In this document: in pieces, positions 26,249 to 61,146 of the stretch
How the letters are laid out: each line of letters opens with the position of its first letter
How positions within the stretch are numbered: the first letter of the stretch is position 1
NCBI GenBank assembly: GCA_023663945.1
Contig: JAMPGL010000001.1
Location: 85,577 to 149,576 of the forward strand
Source: Lachnospiraceae bacterium
GTDB lineage: Bacteria; Bacillota; Clostridia; Lachnospirales; Lachnospiraceae
Length of the DNA stretch: 64,000 bases
Reading direction: 5' to 3'
The notes under the pieces: model-generated
Told to the model about the DNA's origin: nothing
Databases searched by the model: none
The model's input: only the letters and a program-made list of their open reading frames with translations
Made by a program: the position numbers and the translations under genes

Positions 26249-26593
26249 TTAAAGTGCCAACTTGTATAATGCTAACTGATTAAGGCTCACGCCCTCTTTT
26301 TCTGCTTCAATAGCTAATCTTTGATGTAGGGATTTTGGAAGCCTTACAACAAATTTTCCGCTGTAATTGTTTGATGTTTCTGGAATAGGAATAGAGAGAT
26401 TATTTTCTATTTTTATTTCAATGTATCCCTCCATTGCTTCATTAAGGCTTTCATATAGCCCTTCAAGCGTATCACTGGTACTTTGGCATCCGTCAAGTTC
26501 TAAAATCCTGCCGTAAAAATAATGTCCGCTTTCGTCATTCATTTCCTGTACCAATCGTGTATAAGGCAATTTCATATAATCTTTTACTTCCAT
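26249..26593 (-). CDS. hicB: HicB-family antitoxin
   Basis: Antitoxin of a type II toxin-antitoxin pair. The N-terminal partial RNase-H-like domain shows GRILELDGCQSTSDTLEGLY and LNEAMEGYIEIKIE. The C-terminal part, FVVRLPKSLHQRLAIEAEKE, is a ribbon-helix-helix DNA-binding domain, so it probably represses its own promoter. Length is 114 residues. AAAGGAG precedes the ATG. It lies 47 bp downstream of the toxin gene on the same strand, the usual hicA-hicB order. Confidence 0.88.
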   Translation of the reverse strand: MEVKDYMKLPYTRLVQEMNDESGHYFYGRILELDGCQSTSDTLEGLYESLNEAMEGYIEIKIENNLSIPIPETSNNYSGKFVVRLPKSLHQRLAIEAEKEGVSLNQLALYKLAL

Positions 26594-26640
26594 GCTTTCA
26601 TGCTCCTTTCTGCTTTCTACATCATTCTGGGATAAGGGGA

Positions 26641-26868
26641 TTATTCCCCTATCCTATTCAGAACATCTACGACATAAGCTTTTTTTAATGGATTTTCTTG
26701 TTTTATTGTTATCAAATCGCCCGTTTCTTTATTCAGATAATGCTTATGACTTCCTTTTTGCCTTGCCGGAACATAACCGTATGCTGCTAAAACCTTGTCT
26801 ATTTCTTCTGGTCGCATTCCGTTTGGCTGCTGCTTCATTTTTTCAATTAGTTTTTTTACATTTGGCAC
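26641..26868 (-). CDS. hicA: HicA-family mRNA interferase toxin
   Basis: Small double-stranded-RNA-binding-fold toxin that cleaves mRNA. I choose GTG 26868 (MPNVKKLIEKMKQQ), giving 75 residues, because AAAGGAG lies about 10 nt upstream; the open frame to 26973 includes promoter sequence. The catalytic histidine is H41 in QKGSHKHYLN. The N-terminus is slightly longer than compact HicA proteins. It pairs with hicB just downstream. Confidence 0.85.
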   Translation of the reverse strand: MPNVKKLIEKMKQQPNGMRPEEIDKVLAAYGYVPARQKGSHKHYLNKETGDLITIKQENPLKKAYVVDVLNRIGE

Positions 26869-27061
26869 TGTGAGTATCTCCTTTCTTTTATATATAGTAT
26901 CATATATAGTACTATTTGTCAATGAGATTATGTAGGGTGGTATTAAAAATAATGTTATTTTAAAATATATCAAAAGTTATTGACAACAACAATAATAAGA
27001 TGAAAATGAAAGTATCAAAACAGACGAACGATAGAAATGATACTGAAAGAGAGGATTGCTT

Positions 27062-27250
27062 ATGTGTATGTATGGATATTGCAGGATAAGTACAAAGCAA
27101 CAGAGCATTGATAGGCAGATAAGAAACATCAAGAGCAGTTATGATAAAGCTGTGATAATACAAGAAGTATATACAGGAACAAAGCAGGATAGACCAGAAT
27201 GGAATAAGCTGTATAAGAAAGCGAAGGCAGGAGATACCATTATTTTTGAT
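27062..27250 (+). pseudogene. serine recombinase (resolvase), N-terminal fragment
   Basis: The frame from ATG 27062 reads MCMYGYCRISTKQQSIDRQI, with the catalytic-serine motif RIST of small serine recombinases, and continues to AKAGDTIIFD. It then loses homology and runs into sigma factor sequence in another frame. The family's remaining catalytic arginines and the helix-turn-helix are missing, so it is inactive. AGAGAGG precedes the start. Confidence 0.75.
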
Positions 27251-28070
27251 ATACAGCCTATGAGCCTATGGAGGACTTATTGCAGGAAGCCTACTTCGGA
27301 CTGGTGGAAGCGATACAGCATTATGAAACATCTAAAAATGTGCGATTTATGACCTATGCGAATACTGGATAAGGCAAGCAGTACAACGCTATATTGAAAA
27401 ATGCGGCTCTGCTGTGCGAATACCGAGCCATACAAGACAGAAGATAGCACGTTACAAGAAAATCGTACAGGAATTAGAGCAGGACTTAGGCAGAGTTCCA
27501 ACGGATAATGAAATAGCTGACAAAATGCGTATATCTGTAGGATTGCTGACGGAATTAAAAATACAGATGCAGGGGGTAGCCAGTTTAGACACCCCATTAA
27601 CAGATGATAACAGTCTGACACTTGCCGATACCGTACAAGCCGATTATAGTCTTGAAGATGAAACAATAGATAAAATATATGTTGAACACTCTAATAGCGA
27701 ATTATGGAGCATTGTAGCACGTTTCACAACCGAAAGAGAGAACCTAATAATAAAAGAGATTTTTATAAACAATCAGACTATGGCGGCAGTAGCCAGAGAA
27801 CAGGGCATATCTTTAGATAGGATAAGGCAGATTAAGGAAAAGGGCTTGCGAAAGCTGCGGACAGGCAGGGCAAGACGTGAGTTATTAGAAAAATTTGATA
27901 TTGTGGAAGCCGGGGCATATAGAAACAGCATGAGCAAATTTAATGAGCATGGTTTTACTTCTACAGTGGAATATATCGCTTTACGCAGGGTAGAGATACA
28001 GGCAGAATATGAAGAGCGAAAAAAGCAGATAGAAGCCATGTTTGAACAGAGGAAAAGAAAGTGTTTATGA
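27250..28070 (+). pseudogene. sigma-70-family factor, 5'-truncated and frameshifted
   Basis: Reading from 27250 gives YEPMEDLLQEAYFGLVEAIQ and NVRFMTYAN, sigma region 2 including its -10-binding part. After AAT (27361-27363) one base is missing: adding a T restores YWIRQAVQRYIEK and joins the frame that continues to 28070. That part contains region 3 (RIPSHTRQKIARYKK) and region 4 (AAVAREQGISLDRIRQIKEK). Such sigma factors are carried by conjugative elements. The 5' end is fused to the resolvase remnant. Confidence 0.75.
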
Positions 28071-28856: not shown

Positions 28857-28926
28857 ATGCACCACCTCCCCTCTTTTTCAAGTTTAGGGAGGCTACCACC
28901 CTGCAACACGATTGTTCCTCTTCGTT

Positions 28927-28955
28927 ATTCTATCATATTCTTTCTTTTGTGACAA
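28927..28955 (-). promoter_or_regulatory. promoter of the type I toxin gene
   Basis: On the minus strand TTGTCA (28955-28950), a 17-bp spacer and TAGAAT (28932-28927). The transcript would carry a ~65-nt leader before the toxin ATG. Confidence 0.7.
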
Positions 28956-29039
28956 TTTCTTTTTAAATTTTCATCTAATAAGCAGGTCAAGAGTTGGCTA
29001 CTGTGTGAAAAGTAACGTTTTTTTATGTATTTAAATCAA

Positions 29040-29095
29040 ATGATGCAACTATGATGCAAAAATGATGCAATTATGATGCATCGTAAAGGTATAAT
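29040..29095 (+). promoter_or_regulatory. four ATGATGCA repeats with 11-bp period before a TATAAT box
   Basis: ATGATGCA starts at 29040, 29051, 29062 and 29073, one helical turn apart. TATAAT follows at 29090-29095, without a recognisable -35. Two readings fit: a regulator-binding array for the lipoprotein gene at 29183, or arm-type sites left from an integrated element, since the motif resembles the pair at 28261. Confidence 0.75.
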
Positions 29096-29182
29096 AGCAG
29101 TGTGGAACAAGATAAGTACAAATTGTTCTGCACTGTTTTTGCGTTTAAACAGTATTTGGCAGAGGAGAAAAGGAGCGTAACT

Positions 29183-30067
29183 ATGAAAAGCCGACTCTCA
29201 AAAACTTTTAAATGGAAAAGGCACCTGCTTTTGGGAGTGTTGCTAATAGGAAGCACAGTGGGCGGACTGCTGAGCTGTGGAAAGCAGGAACCACAACAGG
29301 CGGACTCGGAAAAAATTAGTATAAAACTTTCGAGAAGAGAGCCTTTTCCCTTTGTGTTTGAGGATTTTAACGCAGACGGTTATTCAGATTTATCGGTAGT
29401 ATTGTATCATGCCCAGCATAATACAATCGTTTCTCATTATATTTTCAGCCCGTCCAAAAGAGAATTTGTGAAGCTGGATTCGGAGCCTGACTATGACGCA
29501 TACGTGGATTACGAGAAAAGGCAGCTGCAGATCCATCATTGGTTTATACAAAATTATGGTCTTGAAGTTACTTATCAGTGGAAAAATGAAATGGATTTCG
29601 AGATGGTCAAACGGTTTAAGCATGACGAGGCAGAGGGAGGCGTGTTGGTAAAGATTGCCCGCTATGAGAACGGAGAGGAGGAGATTCTTTCCAATTATAT
29701 TTATTCTCAAGAGGAATACGCGGAACGTGATGATATTTGGGGAACTTATCGTGAAGATTTTATCTGGGAAAAGGAAGTGGCGGACAGCACTGACGGAAAA
29801 AAATATACGATTCGTTATGCAGAAGTTTTTCTGCCGGAGGAGGCTGAAAAAAATAACGGCATTTATTATGACGGGCGGATTTATGTCTATAATGAGGACA
29901 CTTATCTGGTCAGTGTGACGCATTCGGAGATTGTCGCTGAGTCGGAGAGCATTGTCTGGGAAGAGGGGGACGGAGGGAAAGAGCAGGCGGTTGTCATTTG
30001 CTATGCTGACGGCGGAAAATCTAAATTTTATCTGTCAGGGCTGATTTGGCCGGATTATCATGTTTGA
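29183..30067 (+). CDS. lipoprotein with acidic Ca-binding-like motif, unknown function
   Basis: The ATG at 29183 follows AAAAGGAG and begins MKSRLSKTFKWKRHLLLGVL, a basic plus hydrophobic signal ending in the lipobox LLSC. The mature part has FEDFNADGYSDLSVVLYH, a D-x-N-x-D-G-x-x-D repeat like those of VCBS/FG-GAP or EF-hand-like domains. The rest (294 residues total) is not recognised. It stands just upstream of the BlaI/M56 genes, whose exported partners carry the same kind of motif. Confidence 0.75.
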   Translation: MKSRLSKTFKWKRHLLLGVLLIGSTVGGLLSCGKQEPQQADSEKISIKLSRREPFPFVFEDFNADGYSDLSVVLYHAQHNTIVSHYIFSPSKREFVKLDSEPDYDAYVDYEKRQLQIHHWFIQNYGLEVTYQWKNEMDFEMVKRFKHDEAEGGVLVKIARYENGEEEILSNYIYSQEEYAERDDIWGTYREDFIWEKEVADSTDGKKYTIRYAEVFLPEEAEKNNGIYYDGRIYVYNEDTYLVSVTHSEIVAESESIVWEEGDGGKEQAVVICYADGGKSKFYLSGLIWPDYHV

Positions 30068-30089
30068 TAATTCCGGTCTTGCAGAAAGG

Positions 30090-30145
30090 TGTTTACATTG
30101 TAAACAGTCAGTGTTAAAATGGGTATGGTGTTTACAATGTAGACA
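30090..30145 (+). promoter_or_regulatory. BlaI-type operators and promoter
   Basis: Operator 1 is the perfect palindrome TGTTTACA-T-TGTAAACA (30090-30106). Operator 2 is TGTTTACA-A-TGTAGACA (30129-30145), with one mismatch. Both hold the TACA-N-TGTA core of BlaI/MecI sites. TTTACA (30092-30097) and TAAAAT (30115-30120) with a 17-bp spacer form a promoter, so operator 1 covers the -35 and operator 2 the start site. Confidence 0.85.
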
Positions 30146-30175
30146 GTTTGGATGAAGGAAGGAACCGGATTATTT

Positions 30176-30553
30176 ATGAGAGAATTAAGTGAAGCGGAAT
30201 GGCATGTGCTGGAAAGTTTGTGGGCGGATTCCCCCAAGGTGGGAAGCCGGATTGTGGCGGATATGGATGCAAGAAGGGGCTGGAACAGGAGCACCACTTT
30301 GACGATGCTTCGGAGAATGACGGAAAAGGGGCTGATTGCCTGTGATGACAGCGGAAAGATGAAAACTTACAGTCCTTTAGTCCACAGGGAAGAGGCAGTC
30401 AAGAAGGAAACGGAAAGCTTCCTAAATAGAGTATATCAGGGCAGTGTGAGTATGCTGTTAAACAGTTTTGTTGGGAAGCAGAAGCTGACTGCTGAGGAGA
30501 TTCGGGAGCTCAGAAAAATTTTGGATCAGGCGGAGGAGAGAGATGAGCATTGA
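30176..30553 (+). CDS. BlaI/MecI-family transcriptional repressor
   Basis: Winged-helix repressor that is cleaved when its partner M56 protease is activated. I use ATG 30176 (MRELSEAEWHVLESLWADSP), the usual family start, with AAGGAAGG upstream; ATG 30152 is less well placed. The DNA-binding helix region is RSTTLTMLRRMTEKGLI. The C-terminal half is the dimerisation domain. Length is 125 residues. It overlaps the M56 gene by 11 bp, so the two are coupled. Confidence 0.92.
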   Translation: MRELSEAEWHVLESLWADSPKVGSRIVADMDARRGWNRSTTLTMLRRMTEKGLIACDDSGKMKTYSPLVHREEAVKKETESFLNRVYQGSVSMLLNSFVGKQKLTAEEIRELRKILDQAEERDEH

Positions 30554-33092
30554 ATGGATAGTGTCTTCCAGCGCACTTATTTTGCTGGTATTGCTGGTCA
30601 GATTTCTTTTTAAGAAAAAGATTTCACCCTGCCTGCGGTATGGGCTATGGCTGATCATTGCACTACGGCTGTTGTGCCCTTTTTCGATTTCAGGAACGCG
30701 TGTCAGTATTTTAAATCTGCTTCCGGAATTGACATGGGAAAGAGCTGTAAACGAGAGCGGACAAATCATCTATGAGCAGAACGGCGGAGCGGATGGCACT
30801 ATGGCAGGATTTGGCGCGGCATCAAACGCGCCGGAGGCACTCATTATTGAGAAGGATGCGGACGAACAGGGGATAGAAACCGCAAATTGGGATGCAGAAG
30901 ATCAAAGCATAGGGCAAGGTAAAAGCATAGAGCAAAGTAAAAGCATGGAACATCAAGCCGTAAATTGGGATACCATGTGGGAAAGCGACGGGGAAGCAGT
31001 AGAATTATTTGCAGAGTACGGGAAAAGGATTTTCACAATCGTGAGCGAAAAGTTCACGAATGGGAATGAGATAGATATCAGCATGATACTCCGCCTAATT
31101 TGGATATTGGGCGCCGGGATATGCGGAAGTATCTTTTTGCTTGTAAATGTGGACTATAGCAGACGGCTTAAGTCCGGCAGGGAGCGGATTGAGACGGAAA
31201 ATCTTCCGGTTCTCTCTGCAATACCGGTATATAAAACAGAGATGATTCAAACTCCATGTTTATTCGGCGTGTTTGCTCCGGCTGTCTATGTGACGGAAGA
31301 CACCCTTAAGGAGGAACAAACATTCCGTTTTGTGCTTTGTCATGAAAATACTCATTATATGCAGCGCGATCACTGGTGGGCGTTCGTACGGGTATTGTGT
31401 CTTTGCGTGCACTGGTTTAATCCGCTGGTGTGGCTGGCGGCAGATTTGTCCCGTCAGGATGGGGAAATGGCTTGTGACGAAAAGGCATTGAAAATGCTTG
31501 GCGATAAGGTCCGGCTTAATTACGGAAAAATTTTGCTGGAACTGAGCGCAGGGAAGTCTGCCATCAATGGATGGCGGATTTCCACCACCATGTCGGGAAA
31601 TGCCCGTCAGATGAAGGAACGGCTGGGAATGATTGTAAATACGCCCGGCAGGAAGAGGGGAATGCAGATTCTTGTGGTGGTGCTTGCAGCGCTCTTGTCG
31701 GTGGTCACTTTTACGGGCAAAAGCAGGGCGCAGGAAAGTGAAAATCTTTACGCGGAAGATGGAGAGCGGGCGGCAGCGGACGCAGAAACAAATACTGATA
31801 AAGCAAATGCAGATGAAACAAATGCGGATAAAGCAAATGCGGATGAATCGAATACAGCCGAAAAGAATGCAGATGAAAAGAATGCCCCTGCCGGATCGGA
31901 GGGTTACAAGGACAATTTGACGGAAATGGAAAATCAGGCGTCAAGAGAAAACGGCGGTGATAAGGCGCAGGAGGTAGAATTTTATCGGGAAATTACTCCG
32001 GTTGTCATCGGGGAGAAGGAATATGAGCTTTGGAGCGAAGGGCATACATCCGAATACGGGTTTTATATCATCGATGCAATTAATCTGGTGGATCCTGACA
32101 GCCCGGAGAAGTATGTGGACAGTATCCGGACGGAGGAGATAAGCCGGGCTCATTGGAATACGCCTGTGGAGCAGGAGGCGATAGCCGTGGAATCGACGAG
32201 AAGAAACGGGGGACTTCTCACGGCTGACCTGAATTTTGACGGGTGGAATGATTTATGCTTTGAGGGCTGGATTACCAATGCCAATGAGCCGTATTATTGT
32301 ATGCTGTGGAATCCGGATCTTAAACAGTACGAGTTCAGCACGGTGCTGTGCAACGTGGAAGTTGACGAGGAGGAGCGGTTCATCATCGAGAGCACCAGAG
32401 ACGGGGACGGTCAATACTCCACCACTTATTACCGTTATGATGAGGAACGCCGGCTTCATATGATAAGATACGTGGAAGAGAATTTGTCGCCGGATGCGGT
32501 ATTTGAACAATTAGATTTGACTTATGTGGAAGATGAGGATAGTATTTATATGCTTCCGGCAATCGTGGACGAAGAGGATATTTTCCAGTATTCTCCCTAC
32601 ACTCTGCTTGCTATGGCAAAGCAGGCGCTTTTGGAGTTATATCAGTGGACAGGGCAGAAGGTGGATACGGCATGTTTTGAGGTAACCAACTTGGGCGATG
32701 TTTTCTTTGGCATGACCCGGGAGGATGTGATACATTCCAGAGTATTTTACAGTCGGGCGTTTGGCGCGGACACGGCGTATAATCTCAGCGACTATGACAA
32801 AATGATTTCTTCCATGTATATCACAACGGGAAGGAGTGCCTGGTATTCACCGGTGTTTTGGAATGTTTATCCAGACCAGATGGATAAAATGACGGACGAG
32901 GAGATTATCATCTGGTATCTGGAACAGACTCCGCTGGTAAAGGATTGTAAGGTGAAGAGTATTGAGAAGCGTTATGCGGATATGTGGACGGTGCAGACGG
33001 AGACGGACGTCTGGCTGGAGGTATTTTATAATGCGGAGATTAAGGAAATCGGCGCGGTGACCGGTCCGTATCCGGATTATCCGGAGCATTAA
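30543..33092 (+). CDS. M56-family (BlaR1-like) membrane metalloprotease with large C-terminal domain
   Basis: Membrane helices at residues ~5-24, ~33-50 and ~185-205 frame a cytoplasmic zinc protease: H267-E-N-T-H271, then MACDEKAL. A final helix lies at ~374-392. Outside the cell follows a low-complexity Asn/Ala/Asp/Glu/Lys linker (residues ~417-450) with NADE/NADK units. A ~400-residue domain then carries LLTADLNFDGWNDLCFEGW. At 849 residues it is far longer than many M56 proteins, and no penicillin-binding motif (SxxK) was recognised in the extra domain. Confidence 0.87.
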   Translation: MSIEWIVSSSALILLVLLVRFLFKKKISPCLRYGLWLIIALRLLCPFSISGTRVSILNLLPELTWERAVNESGQIIYEQNGGADGTMAGFGAASNAPEALIIEKDADEQGIETANWDAEDQSIGQGKSIEQSKSMEHQAVNWDTMWESDGEAVELFAEYGKRIFTIVSEKFTNGNEIDISMILRLIWILGAGICGSIFLLVNVDYSRRLKSGRERIETENLPVLSAIPVYKTEMIQTPCLFGVFAPAVYVTEDTLKEEQTFRFVLCHENTHYMQRDHWWAFVRVLCLCVHWFNPLVWLAADLSRQDGEMACDEKALKMLGDKVRLNYGKILLELSAGKSAINGWRISTTMSGNARQMKERLGMIVNTPGRKRGMQILVVVLAALLSVVTFTGKSRAQESENLYAEDGERAAADAETNTDKANADETNADKANADESNTAEKNADEKNAPAGSEGYKDNLTEMENQASRENGGDKAQEVEFYREITPVVIGEKEYELWSEGHTSEYGFYIIDAINLVDPDSPEKYVDSIRTEEISRAHWNTPVEQEAIAVESTRRNGGLLTADLNFDGWNDLCFEGWITNANEPYYCMLWNPDLKQYEFSTVLCNVEVDEEERFIIESTRDGDGQYSTTYYRYDEERRLHMIRYVEENLSPDAVFEQLDLTYVEDEDSIYMLPAIVDEEDIFQYSPYTLLAMAKQALLELYQWTGQKVDTACFEVTNLGDVFFGMTREDVIHSRVFYSRAFGADTAYNLSDYDKMISSMYITTGRSAWYSPVFWNVYPDQMDKMTDEEIIIWYLEQTPLVKDCKVKSIEKRYADMWTVQTETDVWLEVFYNAEIKEIGAVTGPYPDYPEH

Positions 33093-33114
33093 AGCGCAGG
33101 TTTAGGAGGAGAAA

Positions 33115-34788
33115 ATGAAAAGAAGAATTGTGGCGGGAATCGCAGGCGTAATGTTATTATTTTTGTCGGCATGCGGTGCAGAGGAAAAAGAACAATTGAT
33201 TGTGGTGGAGGAGGCGGTGCCGGACTCTTCCATGGAAAAGACGGAGAGCGGAACGGAAATGCCGCTTCATGGGTCTGAGAATCCGGCAGATGCCAATGCA
33301 GACTCCGATACGGGTTCCAATTTGGATTCCAAGTTGGATTCTAATAAAAATTCTTATATAGGGGTTTATCAGCAGATCGTTTCGGAAATGGAAGAGGAGG
33401 GGACTGTCTTTTCCTTGATTTATTTAGATAATGATGATATTCCGGAGCTGGCGGTCTGCGACCGGAGGTATGATGCTTATTCTGTTTACACGGTGAAGGA
33501 GGACAGCGCTTTTTGCATCATGGATGCTATGATTACGGTGGAAATGACTTACTTTGAGCAAAAAGGCGTGCTCGCTCAGTTTGCCAGATGGAACGGAGGA
33601 GGCGACGAGGGCGGATACGGCTGGTATTATTATCAGATGAATGCCGACAAGACCCTTGCGGATGACAGTGTGCCTGATTTGCATTTTACTTATAATGCAA
33701 TCTATGATGATGAGGGAAATTGGACGGGTGCGCGGGATTATTACTGCCAAGGAGAAGAAATAAGTGAAGCGGATTATCAGAAAAAGCTGAATGATATGGG
33801 AATCGTGGATGGCAACAGCAGGATTTGTATGGAGAATGCCCTAGGGAAAAAGGAAATGCTGGAATTGCTTGAACAGGATGCAAAACAAGTGGAATCGGGA
33901 AAGGCACTGGCGGAAGCGGAAGGGCAGATTGCCGGACAGTCCTTTGAAACAGAGCTTTATGGGTTTGGAAAGGTGGTTTTTGCGCCTTTTGAGCCTTTGA
34001 GCTATCCGTCGGAAAATCCGGATTACGGCACGACAACCTTTGGAGATGTGCGTTTTATGCTGCTTTCCCCGGCAGATGGAAAGACGGTTTATGAATTTCC
34101 GGGGACGGAAGAGGACAATATTCTGCCGGGCTTTACGCAGTTTCGGGAGGTTTTGTCCGTGGCGTTTAAAGATTATAACGAGGATGGAAAGACGGATATT
34201 CTCCTTATTCTGGAATACCTTAATTCGGAAGGAACGCCTTTCAGAAAAGCGCGGGTTTACAGCCAGAAGGATGGGGAGCAGGAGTTCTGGTATAACCGGA
34301 ATCTGTCAGAATTTTTGTGGGATTATACGGAGAGCATGGAACAGCTTTGTAAGGGGATTGCTGTTTATCAGGAAAGTTACAGCACTTATTATGCGGAAGA
34401 TTTATCCGAAGAGGAGCTGATGGAGTTTTTGGACGAAAGAGGGGGATATTACCAGAAGAGCGCATATTATCCGGAAATAATCGACTACTGGGAAAATGTG
34501 CGTGAGGTGAGAGATGTTTCCAATCATATCATACCGCTTTACGAGTCGTCTACCCGTTATTTGACGAAAGAGGAGCTTGCCTCCGCTCCTCCGGTAGTGA
34601 TTCATCTGGCGAAAAACGAAATTTACGCCCGGCACGGATATATTTTTAAAGAACCGGATCTGTACAATTATTTTATGGGATGTATCTGGTACACGCCTGC
34701 CGTTGCACCGGAGGATTTCAGGGAAGAGATGCTGAATGAGTATGAAAAAGAAAATCTGAAGCTGTTTGCTGAGCTGGATACCATGTAA
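33115..34788 (+). CDS. lipoprotein with C-terminal YARHG domain
   Basis: The signal MKRRIVAGIAGVMLLFLSAC ends in lipobox LSAC. The linker is Asp/Ser/Asn rich (residues ~55-75). Then come FSLIYLDNDDIPELAV and FKDYNEDGKTDILLILEYL, acidic D-rich motifs like those of its neighbours. The C-terminal YARHGYIFKEPDLYNYFMG (from residue ~504) is a YARHG extracellular domain. It is 557 residues long and starts 22 bp after the M56 gene with TTAGGAGG, so it shares that operon. Function unknown; a surface sensor or binding role is inferred. Confidence 0.8.
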   Translation: MKRRIVAGIAGVMLLFLSACGAEEKEQLIVVEEAVPDSSMEKTESGTEMPLHGSENPADANADSDTGSNLDSKLDSNKNSYIGVYQQIVSEMEEEGTVFSLIYLDNDDIPELAVCDRRYDAYSVYTVKEDSAFCIMDAMITVEMTYFEQKGVLAQFARWNGGGDEGGYGWYYYQMNADKTLADDSVPDLHFTYNAIYDDEGNWTGARDYYCQGEEISEADYQKKLNDMGIVDGNSRICMENALGKKEMLELLEQDAKQVESGKALAEAEGQIAGQSFETELYGFGKVVFAPFEPLSYPSENPDYGTTTFGDVRFMLLSPADGKTVYEFPGTEEDNILPGFTQFREVLSVAFKDYNEDGKTDILLILEYLNSEGTPFRKARVYSQKDGEQEFWYNRNLSEFLWDYTESMEQLCKGIAVYQESYSTYYAEDLSEEELMEFLDERGGYYQKSAYYPEIIDYWENVREVRDVSNHIIPLYESSTRYLTKEELASAPPVVIHLAKNEIYARHGYIFKEPDLYNYFMGCIWYTPAVAPEDFREEMLNEYEKENLKLFAELDTM

Positions 34789-34800
34789 AGGGAGTCGAAG

Positions 34801-35715
34801 ATGAAGAACAAATATTTGATATTGTTATTGGGGATATTGGTTATCGGGACATCAGGATGTGGAAAGAGCGGAGAGAAAGAAGATTTGATACCTCCCATAG
34901 TAGTTGAAGAGATAGAAGAATCGGATTATGATGACAATGCCGGAGAAAAAGAGGGTACAGATGAAACAAATGAGGATTCCAGAGAGAAAATCGTAAAAGA
35001 GGATTCGGCTGTAGAAAAGGAGGATGCGGCAAAGGCAGTTGGAGCGCAAAAAGCAGAGGAGGGCATTGACACTGCATCACAGACAGACCCGGAAAAGGCG
35101 GCATATAATGCCGTGCTTGAGAAACTTTATACGACTTATACTCTCCCTGACGGAACAGAGCTGGGGTATGATGGAATAACAGATCTTTCATGGAATAAAT
35201 TTGCCATATATGATATCGATCAGGATGGAAAGGAAGAACTGATTATCCAATGGACAACTACATACACGGCGGGAATGTCGGGAATCATATACGGTTTTGA
35301 CAGCGTTTCCGGCACTGTCAAGGCGGAGCTTTGGGAATATCCTTCACAGACCTTTTATGATAACGGCGTTGTGGAAGTGGAGCTGTCCCACAATCATGGG
35401 ATGGCTGGTGAGATAGAAGATTTTTGGCCTTATACTTTTTATCAGTATGATAAGAATACGGACACCTATCTCTGCACAGCGGAGGTGGACGCATGGAATA
35501 AGGCATACTATGAAACGGACTATGACGGCGTGCCTTTTCCGGATGAGCTTGATGCGGACAAAGATGGAATTTTGTATCAAGTAACAGTTGGGAATAGCGA
35601 AAAGCTGATGGATTTAGAGGAGTATGAAAAGTGGCGGGACTCTATGATTGGCGGAGCAGTGAAGATAGAGATTCCGTTTGTGGGGATAACGGAGGAGAGC
35701 ATCCGCAACAGTTAA
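34801..35715 (+). CDS. lipoprotein of unknown function, same cluster
   Basis: 304 residues. The signal MKNKYLILLLGILVIGTSGC ends in lipobox TSGC, followed by a highly acidic linker (residues ~35-95). The folded part has KFAIYDIDQDGKEELIIQWT, again a D-x-D-x-D-G motif. It starts 12 bp after the YARHG lipoprotein stop. Not recognised beyond these features; a calcium-dependent extracellular domain is possible. Confidence 0.75.
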   Translation: MKNKYLILLLGILVIGTSGCGKSGEKEDLIPPIVVEEIEESDYDDNAGEKEGTDETNEDSREKIVKEDSAVEKEDAAKAVGAQKAEEGIDTASQTDPEKAAYNAVLEKLYTTYTLPDGTELGYDGITDLSWNKFAIYDIDQDGKEELIIQWTTTYTAGMSGIIYGFDSVSGTVKAELWEYPSQTFYDNGVVEVELSHNHGMAGEIEDFWPYTFYQYDKNTDTYLCTAEVDAWNKAYYETDYDGVPFPDELDADKDGILYQVTVGNSEKLMDLEEYEKWRDSMIGGAVKIEIPFVGITEESIRNS

Positions 35716-35757
35716 GCTTTGCAGATTTGGGCTGTAGGAAAACCCCATTTAAAATTC

Positions 35758-35786
35758 TTTACCATGTATAAAAATTGAGATATAAT
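35758..35786 (+). promoter_or_regulatory. promoter of the GH127 gene
   Basis: TTTACC (35758-35763), 17-bp spacer and perfect TATAAT (35781-35786), about 90 bp before the ATG. Confidence 0.65.
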
Positions 35787-35877
35787 TATATCACGAAAAA
35801 TGGTGAAGGCGATTTGGTGCTTATGAGTATTGAAGCTTGAAAAGCAAGAAAAGACTTTGGAAAGAAAGGAATCCAAT

Positions 35878-37797
35878 ATGAAAATACAAAGGCAGATAGA
35901 CGTCAAAGGCTTCGAGAGCAGAAAAGGCTTTATTTATGACTATCAAAAGCTCATAAAGGATGTAGTGATTCCTTACCAGTATGCGGTTCTGCACGATCAG
36001 GTGGAGGGAGTGGAAAAGAGCCATGTAGTTTCCAATTTTGAAAATGCGGCAAAAGCAGTCCGGGGAGAAGATGTGGGGGACGGATTTTACGGGATGGTTT
36101 TTCAGGACAGCGACGCCGCCAAGTGGCTTGAGGCGGCGGCTTATTCGCTGGCGGTTTTTCCAGATAAGGATTTGGAGCAAAAGGCGGACGTGCTGATTGA
36201 AAAGATTGCAGCGGCGCAGGATACGGATGGATACCTAAATACATATTTTACCATTAAAGACAGGGAAAAGCGCTGGACGAATCTTTTGGAAGGGCATGAG
36301 CTTTATTGTGCCGGGCACATGATGGAGGCTGCCGCCGCTTATTTTGAGACGACAGGAAAGGACAGGCTTCTTAAGGTAATGCTTAAGAATGCGGAGCATA
36401 TTTATCAAAAATTTGTGGTGGAAGGAAAGGAAGGCTATCCGGGCCATCCGGAGGTAGAGCTGGCTCTGCTTCGGATGTACCGCGCGGCAAACGATGAGAA
36501 GTGTCTGGAACTGGCAAAGCATTTTATTGACGTGCGGGGCGTTGACCGGGAGTTTTATAAAAGGGAAGTGGAGAGCCGGGATTGGAAGGTCTGGGGAAAC
36601 GATGCGTCGGATTACGATTATCAGCAGTCCGGAAAGCCGGTGCGGGAGCAGAGCGATGCCACGGGGCACAGTGTCCGGGCGGTATATCTTTATACCGGAA
36701 TGGCTGACCTTGCATCGGAGACAGGGGATGAGGAGCTTCGCGCGGCATGTAAAAGATTGTTTGAAAGTATCCGGGAACGCCGGATGTATGTGACAGGCGG
36801 AATTGGATCTACCGCGCTTGGAGAAGCATTTACCGTTGATTATCATCTTCCCAATGACACAGCGTATGCGGAGACCTGCGCGTCCATCGGGTTAATGTTT
36901 TTTGCGTCCAGAATGCTGGAGATGGAAGTGGATTCTGTCTATAGCGACGTGATGGAGCGGGCGTTTTACAATACGGTGCTGGCAGGGATGCAGCTTGACG
37001 GCAGGCGGTTCTTTTATGTGAATCCGCTGGAGGTGATTCCGGGAATTTCCGGCGAGGCAGCGACTCACAAACACGCGCTTCCTCAGAGACCCGGCTGGTA
37101 TACCTGTGCCTGCTGTCCGCCCAATGTGGCGCGGTGCATTGCCTCCATCGGCAGATATGCTTACGGGGAAAATGAGACTACAGCCTTTATCCATCTGTTT
37201 ATGGAAGGAAAGGCATCTTTGAAAAACGGTTTTGTGCTGGACTGTGAGACAAAGTATCCCTATGAAATGAAGGCGGTGTATCGGGTTCTGGCTGGAAACG
37301 GTACGGTGGCAGTGCGGGAGCCGGACTGGAGCAGGGACAGCTTCCGGATTTTGGTGAATGGCAGTGAGCAGGCGGGAAATTATGCGAGAGGATACCGGTA
37401 TCTGGAAGGAATCAAGGCAGGAGATGTGATTGAGGTTGTTTTTGACGACCGTGTAAAAAGAATTTATGCTTCTGCCAAGGTTTCCAGTGACAGCGGATAC
37501 GCTGCATTGCAGAGGGGACCGCTGGTATATTGCGTGGAAGGGATTGATAATGAGGGAGACGTGCTTTCTCTCTCCTATGCAGAAGAGGGAAAGGTGGAAA
37601 TAGGAGAGTTTGAACCGGAGCTGCTTAACGGAACCATAAAGTTAAGAGCGGAGGGTTATAGAACGGTTCAAAATCAATCACTTTACACTTATGAGAAGCA
37701 GAAACGGGAGCGGTGCATAATCACGGCAGTTCCTTATTACACATGGGGAAACCGGGGGCTGGGACAGATGAGGGTATGGCTTCCAGAGAGACCTTAG
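35878..37797 (+). CDS. GH127-family beta-L-arabinofuranosidase-like glycosidase
   Basis: Glycoside hydrolase releasing beta-linked L-arabinofuranose from plant glycans in characterised relatives. The 639-residue sequence has the cysteine zinc site of the family: E332-T-C334 and the C412/C413 pair in CACCPPNVARCI; one of the latter is the expected nucleophile. AAAGAAAGGA precedes ATG 35878; the open frame upstream to 35830 lacks a better site. There is no signal peptide, so it acts in the cytoplasm on imported oligosaccharides. Substrate assignment is by family only. Confidence 0.9.
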   Translation: MKIQRQIDVKGFESRKGFIYDYQKLIKDVVIPYQYAVLHDQVEGVEKSHVVSNFENAAKAVRGEDVGDGFYGMVFQDSDAAKWLEAAAYSLAVFPDKDLEQKADVLIEKIAAAQDTDGYLNTYFTIKDREKRWTNLLEGHELYCAGHMMEAAAAYFETTGKDRLLKVMLKNAEHIYQKFVVEGKEGYPGHPEVELALLRMYRAANDEKCLELAKHFIDVRGVDREFYKREVESRDWKVWGNDASDYDYQQSGKPVREQSDATGHSVRAVYLYTGMADLASETGDEELRAACKRLFESIRERRMYVTGGIGSTALGEAFTVDYHLPNDTAYAETCASIGLMFFASRMLEMEVDSVYSDVMERAFYNTVLAGMQLDGRRFFYVNPLEVIPGISGEAATHKHALPQRPGWYTCACCPPNVARCIASIGRYAYGENETTAFIHLFMEGKASLKNGFVLDCETKYPYEMKAVYRVLAGNGTVAVREPDWSRDSFRILVNGSEQAGNYARGYRYLEGIKAGDVIEVVFDDRVKRIYASAKVSSDSGYAALQRGPLVYCVEGIDNEGDVLSLSYAEEGKVEIGEFEPELLNGTIKLRAEGYRTVQNQSLYTYEKQKRERCIITAVPYYTWGNRGLGQMRVWLPERP

Positions 37798-37886
37798 AAG
37801 CAGAAAGCCCGGCAGGAGAATCGGTTCAGTTTCACAGGTCAGTCTTTTTTGATATACTATAGACAAAACGCAGGGAGGAAATGGCA

Positions 37887-43803: not shown

Positions 43804-46596
43804 ATGAGCATGAGACGTGGGATGAAAAGGTATACATGTTTTTTGGGTTTATGTCTGCTGTCATTATGTGTCTGCGGGTGGGAAAATGCTGATGACCAAA
43901 CAGGTCAAAAGGAGAAATTCGTGGACTTGGACGAAATCAGGGAAGAAGGCGTCGTGCTGGATTCCATGGGGCAGGAATTTGAAATTCTGGAATATATCTT
44001 TGAGATGCCTGAAGCAGAGCATGTCAGTGAGCAGGCGGCGGAAGAGATTAAGAAGTGGCAGAAGGAGGAGCTTGCGCTCTTCTGGCAGGCGGTGGAAGAG
44101 CAGGCTTCGGTGGAGGACGACAAGTTTTGGGAAATCAAGTCCAATCCGGAGGAGGAAAAGCAGATTTGGTGGGGCGCCGGATATTATCATGTGGAATATT
44201 CTGTTTTTGAGAGCGATGGGCTGATTAGCTTTTTGAAAAGGGAATATCAGCTTTACACGAACGCCGCCCATGAAATACTAGATGACAGTTCTGTCATTTT
44301 TGACAGTGACACGGGGGAGAGGGTTGCATCACAGCAGATTTTAAATAGGCTGATTGGAGAAGGAGAAGAGAAGCGCATTTATCTGGCACAGTACTTGAAG
44401 GAACAGCTTCATGAGCTGGCATGGAACGAATATTATAGTGACAGGCTGGTATATAAGATTTTGTATCAACCGGAATGCTATGTGAAGAGAGATACGTTGG
44501 TGGTGTTCTTTGATACATATGATATTGCAGTCTATGCGGCAGGAGATATTTTTCTGGAAGTTCCTTTCCATAAGTTAGACCGCCTTGAAGAGGAGATCAT
44601 TGATAAGTCATCAGCCAAAGAGCGCATTAGAAAGCTGGACAAACCGGGAGGTCAAAATGGATACCTGATTGAAATTGCGGAGGGAGAAACTGTTCGGGCG
44701 GATTTGGACGGCGACGGAGGGGAAGAGGTTCTGTTTTATCCTCTCCGCAAGGAGCCGGATAAGGATAATCATGAATTAACCATTACAGTCAATGGAAAAA
44801 AGATTGATTTTCCATTGGAGGAAAAGGCGGAAAGGAGAGCAATCGCCTTAGTGGATCTTGACAAGGAAGATGGTGAGTATGAGCTGGCAGTCCGGACGGG
44901 GGATAAGGATGTAAATCCGGAAACGGTCTTTTTTGGATATTATGACAAAGAATTAAAAGAGGTTGGCAGGACAGGCTTTTGGATAGACCGGGAAACGATC
45001 AATGACGGAAAAGCATGGATACGCGGAGACGGATTTGTCAGTGACAATGAGGAGGTTACGGAAATTCGCAAGGAAAGCAATGCCGAAGACAAAGTAATCG
45101 TGGAAGGGCTTAAGGAGGAGGGCTCCCGGATGGATTCCTTTTATCAGGAGTCTTTGCTGTTGAACTATGAGTTTTCAATGCCTTCGATAACATGTCAAGG
45201 AGAACAGGCGGCGGAGAAAATTAAAGAATGGCAGGCGGAAGAGTTTGACGCGTTTATGCAGAAGATGGAGGAGCTGGCTTTAGATGCGGACAGTGACTGT
45301 CTAGAGCGGTTGATTAGTCAGGACGGCTGGGGCGTGCCCTGCATTTACTCAGTGAAATATGATGTATTTGAGAGCGAGGGAGCGGTCAGTCTTTTAAAAG
45401 ATGAATTTCAATGCTACGGTCCAAGTCATGGAAGCACAACCAATTCGGGAATCGTATTTGACAACAGTACCGGAGAGAGGCTTTCCATTGACTATTTCCT
45501 TGACGGAGAAGAAAATCAGTGCATTGCCCTTGCACAATACCTGATTGAGCAAGTGGATAGAGAGCATCTTATTGATAATTATAAAGAAGATATTGTGCAT
45601 AAGGTTGTATTTGACCCTCAGTTTTATGTGGACGGTGATACTCTGGTTTTTCTTTTTAGTCAGGATGAGCTTGCTTCTCATGCATATGGACCTATTTTCT
45701 TAAAGGTTCCTTTAAAGACCCAAAGAGCGGTGGAAGACCGGGAGGCAATCGAAAAGTGGACGGAGGAACTGCAGATTCCCGGCAGGGTTAATCGTTATCT
45801 GGTGGAAGTTCCAAGCGGGCAGAGAAAAACAGTTGATTTGGATGGGGACGGTCAGGAAGAGGAAATTTATTATCAGGAGGAAAAATCCGCCGTGGAAAAT
45901 ATCTCGTCAAAAATCACTGTGACGATAGGCGGGAAGAAGTTTCAGCTTACTGTGGACGAAAATATAGTCCGAGAGTCCATTGGACTGGTTGACATTGACA
46001 AGGAAGACGGAAAATACGAGCTGGCGGTTCGGGCGGCGGGATCAAGTGACGATTATGTCACCGCTTTTTACAGATATGACAGTGGGGAGATTCGGGAAAT
46101 CGGCAGGATTGGATGTATCATTGACCGTGACAGTATAGACTTAGGGGAGGCGTATCTGCATGGCAATGGAGAGATTTACGGCAGCAGGGTACTTGGCATA
46201 TTGGAAATCCGTCAGGTGAATGACCGTTGGAAACTGGATGCCGATACGGATCTGTTAGTTCTTCAGGAAAAGGAGAAATATGATTACTTTTTTAAAGATT
46301 GGACGGAACCGTTTGCAGGATGGCGCTGGGAGCGCCCTTATAAATTGACGGGCGGAATTCTTGTCTATGACCAGATGGACAGGGCATCGGAATGTCGGAT
46401 TGTCACAGGAGAGGATACGCGGATTATTCAATTTCTTTCCACCGATGGTAAAAATTGGGTGGAGACGGAGCTCTTTACGGACGGCGAATTTAAGCGGGGC
46501 TGGGTTTATTTATTGGATTCTACGTTGATAGAGGTTGAAAAAGGGCAATTTAAGCCATGCTCTCAATGCATTGAGAACTTGCAGAGGGCAGGCTGA
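43804..46596 (+). CDS. large exported protein with two DUF3298-like repeats
   Basis: 930 residues. The N-terminus (MSMRRGMKRYTCFLGLCLLS then LCVCG) is a signal with a possible but non-canonical lipobox. Two homologous halves follow, each with an EQAAEEIKKWQ-type helix, YSVFESDGLISFLKREYQ-type block, and a strand set ending DTLVVFFDTYDIAVYAAG (residue ~230) or DTLVFLFSQDELASHAYG (~612). Each half then has a VDLDGDG motif followed by VDIDKEDGKYELAVR or equivalent. Internal gene duplication is evident. Function unknown. Confidence 0.75.
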   Translation: MSMRRGMKRYTCFLGLCLLSLCVCGWENADDQTGQKEKFVDLDEIREEGVVLDSMGQEFEILEYIFEMPEAEHVSEQAAEEIKKWQKEELALFWQAVEEQASVEDDKFWEIKSNPEEEKQIWWGAGYYHVEYSVFESDGLISFLKREYQLYTNAAHEILDDSSVIFDSDTGERVASQQILNRLIGEGEEKRIYLAQYLKEQLHELAWNEYYSDRLVYKILYQPECYVKRDTLVVFFDTYDIAVYAAGDIFLEVPFHKLDRLEEEIIDKSSAKERIRKLDKPGGQNGYLIEIAEGETVRADLDGDGGEEVLFYPLRKEPDKDNHELTITVNGKKIDFPLEEKAERRAIALVDLDKEDGEYELAVRTGDKDVNPETVFFGYYDKELKEVGRTGFWIDRETINDGKAWIRGDGFVSDNEEVTEIRKESNAEDKVIVEGLKEEGSRMDSFYQESLLLNYEFSMPSITCQGEQAAEKIKEWQAEEFDAFMQKMEELALDADSDCLERLISQDGWGVPCIYSVKYDVFESEGAVSLLKDEFQCYGPSHGSTTNSGIVFDNSTGERLSIDYFLDGEENQCIALAQYLIEQVDREHLIDNYKEDIVHKVVFDPQFYVDGDTLVFLFSQDELASHAYGPIFLKVPLKTQRAVEDREAIEKWTEELQIPGRVNRYLVEVPSGQRKTVDLDGDGQEEEIYYQEEKSAVENISSKITVTIGGKKFQLTVDENIVRESIGLVDIDKEDGKYELAVRAAGSSDDYVTAFYRYDSGEIREIGRIGCIIDRDSIDLGEAYLHGNGEIYGSRVLGILEIRQVNDRWKLDADTDLLVLQEKEKYDYFFKDWTEPFAGWRWERPYKLTGGILVYDQMDRASECRIVTGEDTRIIQFLSTDGKNWVETELFTDGEFKRGWVYLLDSTLIEVEKGQFKPCSQCIENLQRAG

Positions 46597-59431: not shown

Positions 59432-59815
59432 ATGAGTGCAGCAAGTTTTAAGATTTCGGATGCGGAACTTGAGGTAATGGCAATACTTTGGAGGGAGAAG
59501 AGGGCAGTATCGTTTAGCGATATTCGTACAGAGCTGAGTGATAAGATGGGTTGGGAGAAGTCCACAATTGCAACGCTGTTAAGACGACTGCAAAAAAAGG
59601 GAGCGGTTTCAATTCAGGAGAAAGAGATTCATTACTACATACCGAATATTACAAAAGAAGATTATATGATACCTAAGAAAAAGAGCCTGATAGATAAACT
59701 TTATGATGGAAGTATAAAGAATTTTGTTGCGGCGCTCTGTCAAAGCGGGGAACTCACAGAAGAGGATATTGATGAACTAAAGATGTATTTCCGAATGGAG
59801 GATGAAAATAAATGA
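59432..59815 (+). CDS. BlaI/MecI-family transcriptional repressor
   Basis: 127 residues; winged-helix repressor with GWEKSTIATLLRRLQKKGAV as recognition region and a helical dimerisation tail. The start MSAASFKISDAELEVMAILW follows AGAGAGGAAG. It overlaps the M56 gene by 4 bp (ATGA). It is a second, divergent copy of the switch at 30 kb. Confidence 0.93.
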   Translation: MSAASFKISDAELEVMAILWREKRAVSFSDIRTELSDKMGWEKSTIATLLRRLQKKGAVSIQEKEIHYYIPNITKEDYMIPKKKSLIDKLYDGSIKNFVAALCQSGELTEEDIDELKMYFRMEDENK

Positions 59816-61146
59816 TGGTTGTTGAAGAATATTCTGCGGAGATAATTAAGCTCATTCTTTCGATGACATTTACCGGCAGTATGGTATCGCTTTTTTTATT
59901 TACTTTAAAGCCGATAATAAAGGACAGGCTCCCTAAGTCATTTCAATATTATATGTGGTTTTCGGTGGTGATAGCTTTGATGCTGCCTGTATCAAAAATT
60001 ATTGAAATTCCTGTGTCGAATGATTTCAAAATTTCAATGAAGTCCATGTATGATATTGCACAGCAGATTTCTGATTTGGCATCTGAAAAACCTGTAAATC
60101 TTGGATTTGTATCACAAAGTAAGAACGGACAGACTGCTCGGCAGGTTACATGTTTTTCAAGTACAGCAGTTCTTTTATCTGCTTTCTGGCAATTAGGAAT
60201 GGTTTTGGTTCTTGGTTTTCATATTATATGCTATGCGCTTTATGTCCGAAAGCTCAACATACATAATATAAGCGCTGAACGGCAGGAAGTAGAACTGTTA
60301 AATACCTTGTTAGAAAGAAAAAGCACTCTGCGGTTGTACAAAAATCCAGTGATAGAAACACCGATTTTAATTGGATTTTTCCTGCCTGCGGTTATCTTGC
60401 CTGATAGAAAATATGAGGATATGAAGCTTCGGAATATTCTGATGCATGAAATTACGCATAAGAAAAGATATGACATTTTTGTCAAGTGGCTGTTAATTTT
60501 GGTTGGAGCGGTACATTGGTTTAATCCAATTGTTTATCTTGTACGCCGGGAGATGAATAAAGCATGCGAATTAGCGTGTGATGAATCCGTCATAAAAAGA
60601 TTTGATAATAGCGAAATGCAACAGTACGGCGATACTTTGATTGCAGTTGCCGCTGATTCAATAAGAAAGATGCCTCTTTCGATAACTATGTTTGAAGATA
60701 AAAAAATTTTAAAAGAAAGGCTGGATGCCATCATGAAACACAAAAAGCATTCAAAAAGAGCAGTCATTGCGGCAAGTGTTTTTTTGACTGTTATTGTCTG
60801 TGCCGTTTTGGGGCTTAGTGCATTGCACGGTACAGAAAATGAATATAAGGATAATGCTTACGCGGATAATTACCCTCTTTTCCAAGACCAAAAACGTATT
60901 AAAGAGTTAGAGCTGAAAAAGGTTTTACGCGATTATGATAAAAAGAATATTGTCGAAGCGTACGTGTTTTTAGGTGATTTAGAGGGTGAAATCACTAACG
61001 CATATATCATGATTGTCTGTCAAGAAAAAAATCCAAATTCTGAAATGCAGAGTGGAATAAAATCACTAGCATCGGAAGAGCTTGAATTAGATGTTCAAAA
61101 TGTCTATGTGGATTATATAGATTTTGAATCATTTACTTCAAATTAA
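59812..61146 (+). CDS. M56-family (BlaR1-like) membrane metalloprotease
   Basis: 444 residues. Membrane helices near residues ~12-30, ~43-60 and ~120-145 surround the zinc protease domain, where H212-E-I-T-H216 and CELACDESVI are the metal sites. A last helix lies at ~315-335, and only ~110 residues follow outside the cell. There is no penicillin-sensor domain, so the signal is unknown. Compare the 849-residue homologue at 30.5 kb. Confidence 0.92.
   Translation: MMVVEEYSAEIIKLILSMTFTGSMVSLFLFTLKPIIKDRLPKSFQYYMWFSVVIALMLPVSKIIEIPVSNDFKISMKSMYDIAQQISDLASEKPVNLGFVSQSKNGQTARQVTCFSSTAVLLSAFWQLGMVLVLGFHIICYALYVRKLNIHNISAERQEVELLNTLLERKSTLRLYKNPVIETPILIGFFLPAVILPDRKYEDMKLRNILMHEITHKKRYDIFVKWLLILVGAVHWFNPIVYLVRREMNKACELACDESVIKRFDNSEMQQYGDTLIAVAADSIRKMPLSITMFEDKKILKERLDAIMKHKKHSKRAVIAASVFLTVIVCAVLGLSALHGTENEYKDNAYADNYPLFQDQKRIKELELKKVLRDYDKKNIVEAYVFLGDLEGEITNAYIMIVCQEKNPNSEMQSGIKSLASEELELDVQNVYVDYIDFESFTSN

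Follow-up and report, generated by a model that had tools for sequence, protein, structure and literature searches.

BlaR1 and MecR1, sensors of the M56 protease family, respond to beta-lactams; in BlaR1, an outside signal activates the inner protease, and the repressor BlaI is cut (available sections of PMC7593790). In the sigma-V system of Bacillus subtilis, the envelope receptor RsiV binds lysozyme (available parts of PMC4183432 and PMC5014341), and Xanthomonas citri has an inhibitor of a GH19 peptidoglycan hydrolase, XAC2610 (X-Tfi; PDB 4QTQ; available part of PMC10933484). Here we analyze a BlaI/M56 locus in a 64,000-nucleotide stretch of contig JAMPGL010000001.1 from a Lachnospiraceae bacterium (hereafter the window; the source assembly is 3.74 Mb in 107 contigs). 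It is a BlaI/M56 system whose sensor belongs to a named non-penicillin family and whose switch, as far as we searched, looks private to its own operon.

Five genes lie at 29183-35715 in the order LipA, BlaI, M56, LipB, and LipC (these genes, and the elements described within and before them, are on the + strand). The BlaI-type repressor (30152-30553) matches Penicillinase_R (Pfam PF03965, 1.6e-30) and can be aligned to the structures of MecI (5.8e-18) and BlaI (1.2e-11). The M56 membrane protease (30543-33092; 849 amino acids) matches Peptidase_M56 (PF05569, 1.1e-47), and its HExxH motif (HENTH at residues 267-271) is followed by DGEMACDE. The final membrane-like segment is at about residues 370-396, so residues 397-849 should be extracellular, judging from hydropathy and by analogy with BlaR1. 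The locus thus shares with BlaR1/BlaI and MecR1/MecI the repressor family, an M56 protease with HExxH and a C-terminal outer region, and two promoter dyads, to which BlaI is predicted to bind. Unlike in those systems, the outer region comprises an XAC2610-like domain and an unnamed domain and lacks the penicillin-binding motif set, and the remaining genes of the operon encode lipoproteins.

The first outer domain (31983-32624; model residues 1-214) belongs to the XAC2610 family. Residues 561-642 of the M56 protein match XAC2610_fam (NF047539 in NCBIfam) at 1.1e-13 and 51.5 bits, above the curated cut-off of 35. Both this domain and LipA carry the calcium-loop motif DxNxDGxxD (a putative calcium site), at residues 562-570 of M56 (DLNFDGWND, 32226-32252) and 61-69 of LipA. 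LipA's own match to NF047539 (residues 57-142; 2.3e-7, 31.2 bits) is below the cut-off. It scored 34.8 bits in a genome-wide search and 35.1 bits with its neighbours in frame, and two relatives of LipA at another locus (L074) scored 59.3 and 32.4 bits. The genome has four matches to NF047539, two of them at this locus, and of 397 Lachnospiraceae genomes, 36 have a match at E ≤ 0.001 and 22 have one above the cut-off. When we modeled the outer region, the best fold match among the families listed was XAC2610 (4QTQ), with a low Z. In the structural comparison that had been suggested for the C-terminal region, then, the best match, at this low Z, was not a penicillin-binding protein (PBP). A profile of the outer region did not find 4QTQ among PDB sequences; its best match (E = 0.019) looked unrelated. 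The second outer domain (residues 687-849; 32601-33089), which we call CTD2, matches no named family and is common to the M56 proteins of loci L070, L071, and L115.

As well as identifying a BlaI-type repressor, an 849-residue M56 protein, and lipoproteins at 29183, 33115, and 34801, all of which are present, the initial annotation noted that the M56 protein and the lipoproteins share an acidic motif resembling D-x-[ND]-x-D-G. All three lipoproteins have lipobox-like N-termini (by eye). We counted 10 occurrences of D-x-[ND]-x-D-G in 178 open reading frames (ORFs; 54,325 amino acids) taken from the window and from 13 stretches elsewhere in the genome; 100 shuffles gave 0.91 on average and never more than 4. 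Half of the matches (5/10) fall in M56, LipA, LipB, or LipC. So, the motif is indeed present in this set. Because another match is in a GH13 amylase (at 37881), the motif by itself is no proof of homology. Against NF047539, LipB scores under the cut-off (13.2 bits, E = 0.093) and LipC does not match at all, so the four motifs probably stem from more than one domain family. Direct comparison of the profiles of M56, LipA, LipB, and LipC gave weak scores; the sole strong score was between signal peptides. The best match of the LipB-domain profile in PDB (E = 0.13) was to integrin-type calcium loops. Of the idea that all four proteins have related calcium-binding-type domains, then, the part concerning M56 and LipA stands, as one family model matches both (LipA slightly below its cut-off), while LipC does not match the outer region of the window's own M56.

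Two dyads precede the BlaI gene. Operator 1 (GTTTACATTGTAAAC, 30091-30105) overlaps the -35 element (TTTACA at 30092) of a candidate blaI promoter, and operator 2 (GTTTACAATGTAGAC, 30130-30144) is downstream of the -10 element (TAAAAT, ending at 30120). This promoter (TTTACA-17-TAAAAT) has the top promoter-like score in 28900-36000 (10 of 12, tied among six sites). Both operators in the initial annotation are present, and they are dyads of the TACAnTGTA type, as in BlaR1/MecR1 systems. The pair (GTTTACAWTGTAAAC and a near copy) precedes BlaI in the window, in five close relatives (L073, L074, L075, L076, and L081), and in L115, which is from another genus. Allowing up to two mismatches, we found no operator in L070, L071, or five related loci that lack the protease (two of these, L077 and L080, are no more than 200 bases from the end of a contig).

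Across the 397 genomes of the family, the operator pair is present in three (this genome, G058, and G384), every time before BlaI-M56; the reversed-pattern control gave none. What had been proposed as a regulon therefore looks like a single operon of BlaI, M56, LipB, and LipC. Single operators are found in 26 of 37 genomes of the genus, versus 7 of 37 for the reversed pattern. In 21 of those 26 genomes, the match is within one ORF, which from its sequence we take to be glyceraldehyde-3-phosphate-dehydrogenase-like; in four it is at the blaI operon, and in one it is before a small gene (L200). In this genome, the operator occurs without mismatches only at the blaI promoter. One mismatch adds two sites, both within ORFs, and these are not above chance given the reversed-pattern control (5 forward + 1 reverse vs. 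4 + 4). We rejected a genome-wide BlaI regulon on these grounds. The idea of a surface-monitoring regulon under this BlaI is not upheld: the exact scan returns only BlaI's own promoter, and LipA lies upstream of the operators.

LipA (29183-30067; 294 amino acids, starting at the inner ATG) is outside the BlaI operon, given this position and a promoter element of its own. It is preceded by four tandem ATGATGCA units with 11-bp spacing (29040-29080) and a -10-like TATAAT (29090-29095). ATGATGCA arrays, partly degenerate, also precede the LipA homologs in L073 and L074. In this genome the arrays are found at 12 loci (23 matches vs. 1 for the reversed control), including one about 150 bp before an XAC2610 gene on contig C30. 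The arrays are followed directly by a -10-like element and then by an ORF; by eye, many of these ORFs encode secreted proteins, membrane proteins, or lipoproteins, and from their sequence context the arrays look as if they mark a regulon of surface-protein genes under a common activator. The 11-bp period resembles that of sites for OmpR/PhoB-type regulators, so LipA probably answers to a regulatory system other than BlaI. Between the lipobox and the XAC2610 domain, the LipA of the window lacks about 370-390 residues that are present in its relatives, which are 661-698 residues long.

The other two lipoproteins follow the protease. LipB (33115-34788; 557 amino acids) has a calcium-loop domain (33931-34332) and a YARHG domain (34537-34776; PF13308, 2e-21), and it is 94 amino acids shorter than the LipB of L073. 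LipC (34801-35715; 304 amino acids) has a conserved domain at 35077-35712.

The initial annotation called for a check of other Lachnospiraceae, and the gene set does recur there. A scan of contigs found the M56 outer region at 10 loci. Five of these have it on an M56 protein. L073 has the full order LipA-BlaI-M56-LipB-LipC; L074 has the same genes with two copies of LipA and with LipB split into two genes; L075 has BlaI-M56-LipC; and L076 and L081 are without LipC (L076 has a different lipoprotein of 207 amino acids). The other five loci (L077, L078, L079, L080, and L082) carry the outer region without the protease. These free copies show 53-56% identity and retain the calcium-loop motif, and the one in L078 begins with a 62-residue stretch that is similar to residues 352-410 of M56. 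In the genus, 11 of the 37 genomes, including this one, have outer-region matches (partial only in G001 and G020). L070 and L071 share just CTD2 with the window's M56, and LipC comes after the M56 gene in both; they have no detectable XAC2610 domain, and at L070 we saw no BlaI ORF next to M56. In the other genus, L115 encodes BlaI, an M56 with CTD2, LipC, a lipoprotein of the XAC2610 family (37.1 bits), and an overlapping LipB-like ORF. The M56 of L115 does not match XAC2610_fam, although most of the window's outer region can be aligned with that of this protein (26% identity). LipC is downstream of M56 in seven of nine distinct M56 genes with CTD2 (the window, L070, L071, L073, L074, L075, and L115), or in 6/8 without L115, which came from our LipC search. 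The genome that contains the L115 operon (G058) also has, on contig C47 (L170), three successive genes of 1011, 723, and 896 amino acids that match LipA and the XAC2610 family.

Because the profiles of the window's own proteins compare weakly, the tie of LipB and LipC to M56 runs through other M56 proteins. A search with LipC hit at least 121 of the 397 genomes at E ≤ 0.001; many of the hits did not extend beyond the signal peptide and the acidic linker (about residues 1-100 of the query) and were dropped. We fetched 28 LipC loci outside this genome with E of 5e-16 or better, plus eight from a second search, and annotated them with hidden Markov models built from sequences of this analysis. 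At five of the 28 loci, an M56 protein contains a LipC-type domain in its outer region: the domain forms the C-terminal part in L116, L120, L123, and L129, and lies within the M56 of L125. LipC is next to M56 in one (L115). At L118 and L133 our ORF filter lost the LipC ORF, so these loci count as neither fused nor adjacent. None of the eight further loci had an M56 that we could find nearby (0/8). Of all 36 loci, one (L138) is about 1.5 kb from an M56 gene on the opposite strand. The fusions are not independent, as L116, L120, L123, and L125 form one M56 clade (46-64% identical) and L129 is separate. The M56 with the LipC-type domain in L120 (L120:6907-8562) has no BlaI that we could find beside it in the fetched stretch.

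This genome has 11 BlaI/M56 pairs. A second M56 (G000:C31, L044; 887 amino acids) has a LipB-type domain at residues 617-738 (4.1e-15) and falls within the clade of L116, L120, L123, and L125 (40-57% identical in the catalytic half). Its LipB-type domain is flanked by two stretches that it has in common with the M56 of L116 (41% identity over 165 amino acids and 46% over 123), which has a LipC-type domain at its end in place of the LipB type. A third M56 (G000:C13, L045:657-2669) has a C-terminal peptidase M23 domain (7.7e-31); this too is a wall-related outer domain on an M56 protein, but it is from a peptidase family rather than the XAC2610 family. The available part of PMC9662197 also mentions M23 proteins that have an M56 domain. 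All three types of lipoprotein in the window, then, have relatives within M56 outer regions, which supports the related domains supposed in the initial annotation, and by sequence comparison the outer parts of M56 proteins look like exchangeable modules. The window itself has another M56 (59812-61146; 444 amino acids) with its own BlaI (about 59453-59785); a response regulator (61411) and a histidine kinase (62167) come after it.

We tentatively propose that the locus is a self-inducing switch of the BlaR1/BlaI type whose receptor is inhibitor-like and most likely responds to wall damage or a wall-active enzyme; we would not be surprised to be wrong. BlaI on the two dyads over its own promoter would repress blaI-M56-lipB-lipC. 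Outside the cell, the M56 protein would present the XAC2610-type calcium-loop beta domain and the second domain. An extracellular partner that binds the outer region would activate the inner zinc protease, BlaI would be cut, and the cell would make LipB, LipC, and additional receptor. The lipoproteins may be binding or decoy proteins. The sequence itself shows the gene set, the operators, the protease motifs, the domain family, and the pool of shared domains; the topology, repression, cleavage, ligand, and part played by the lipoproteins are inferred. As for cleavage, the window's BlaI has a Phe at what we take to be the known BlaI cleavage site (Asn-Phe); the Phe is kept and the preceding residue is Ser, not Asn. 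By analogy with BlaR1, whose sensor is related to a beta-lactamase, and with RsiV, the partner would most likely be an enzyme that acts on peptidoglycan or else a signal of wall damage, which is our first candidate because of the XAC2610 family of the domain and the RsiV precedent. If so, the system would resemble RsiV in detecting a wall hydrolase through an envelope receptor that is read out by proteolysis; but RsiV carries DUF3298/DUF4163 and is an anti-sigma factor, while this M56 would act on a repressor, and neither domain matches the window's M56 (Pfam, E up to 0.1). Elsewhere in the window (43804-46596), there is a 930-residue protein with DUF3298 (1e-12), a sub-threshold match to PdaC, and two D-x-D-x-D-G motifs; DUF3298 is also named for RsiV in the available part of PMC4183432.

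Because of three observations, we infer a wall enzyme as the ligand rather than assign it. Tyr170, the inhibitory residue of XAC2610, is absent from both M56 and LipA (by eye); we recognized no hydrolase gene among ten other genes of the window; and the Z of the fold match is low. The differences from XAC2610 extend to context: here a Gram-positive bacterium carries the domain both on a membrane protease and on a lipoprotein, and no effector gene was recognized alongside. Even without the Tyr, a receptor for a peptidoglycan-active protein seems to fit the domain family better than does the sensing of lipoprotein or envelope state, which the initial annotation had suggested. In that alternative, the outer region of M56 contacts the lipoproteins, chiefly LipC through CTD2; LipC serves as co-receptor, and proteolysis starts when contact or calcium is lost. 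The frequent placement of LipC downstream of M56 genes with CTD2, including the two without a detectable XAC2610 domain, suggests such a contact, as do the LipC-type domains that are built into other M56 proteins. But only 5 of the 36 fetched LipC loci are fused to M56 and one is adjacent (with L138 nearby on the other strand), and two close relatives (L076 and L081) do without LipC. We consider this alternative possible but rather doubtful.

The outer region might instead be the effector itself, a surface-binding or inhibitor protein that is fused to M56 or freed from it, with M56 signaling secondary or lost in many species. Half of the outer-region loci have protease-free copies with an intact calcium loop, and the one in L078 keeps the M56-like N-terminal stretch. 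Yet the window and all five relatives with the protease have HExxH, BlaI, and both operators intact, and no operator lies near the free copies (bearing in mind the contig ends at L077 and L080), so we think this improbable. A BlaR1/MecR1-like switch for beta-lactam resistance would account for the M56 and BlaI modules and for the operator layout. However, residues 396-849 of M56 contain two SxxK and one SxN, no KTG, and no ordered set of these motifs, which bears out the annotated lack of a penicillin-binding motif; and no beta-lactamase or PBP family is found among the genes of the operon. With the best fold match being XAC2610, we rejected beta-lactam sensing as the main explanation and would be very surprised if it were correct.

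Upstream of the operon, at 26249-28070, are a HicB-like antitoxin gene, a sigma-70-like ORF, and what we take, from its sequence, to be a resolvase-like fragment; these are perhaps remnants of mobile DNA.

A more specific version of our proposal is that M56 is a BlaR1-type receptor for a peptidoglycan-degrading enzyme, such as host lysozyme or a rival's bacteriolysin, with an inhibitor fold as the sensor, and that it belongs to a modular Lachnospiraceae set in which M56 receptors and free lipoproteins exchange outer domains. As a whole, this is speculative and probably wrong in some part. In literature whose coverage lacked most subscription journals, we found no title or abstract on an M56 receptor of this kind and no paper in which M56 and FG-GAP appear together. 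If the specific version is true, then every such sensor would resemble the protein that it induces, as BlaR1 resembles beta-lactamase. BlaI/M56 pairs are numerous, and a receptor with a recognizable inhibitor-type domain, a conserved operator confined, as far as seen, to its own operon, and defined neighbors provides a testable case for the other sensors. More broadly, the fact that M56 receptors and lipoproteins share domains may offer a general route to guessing the ligands of the remaining M56 proteins.

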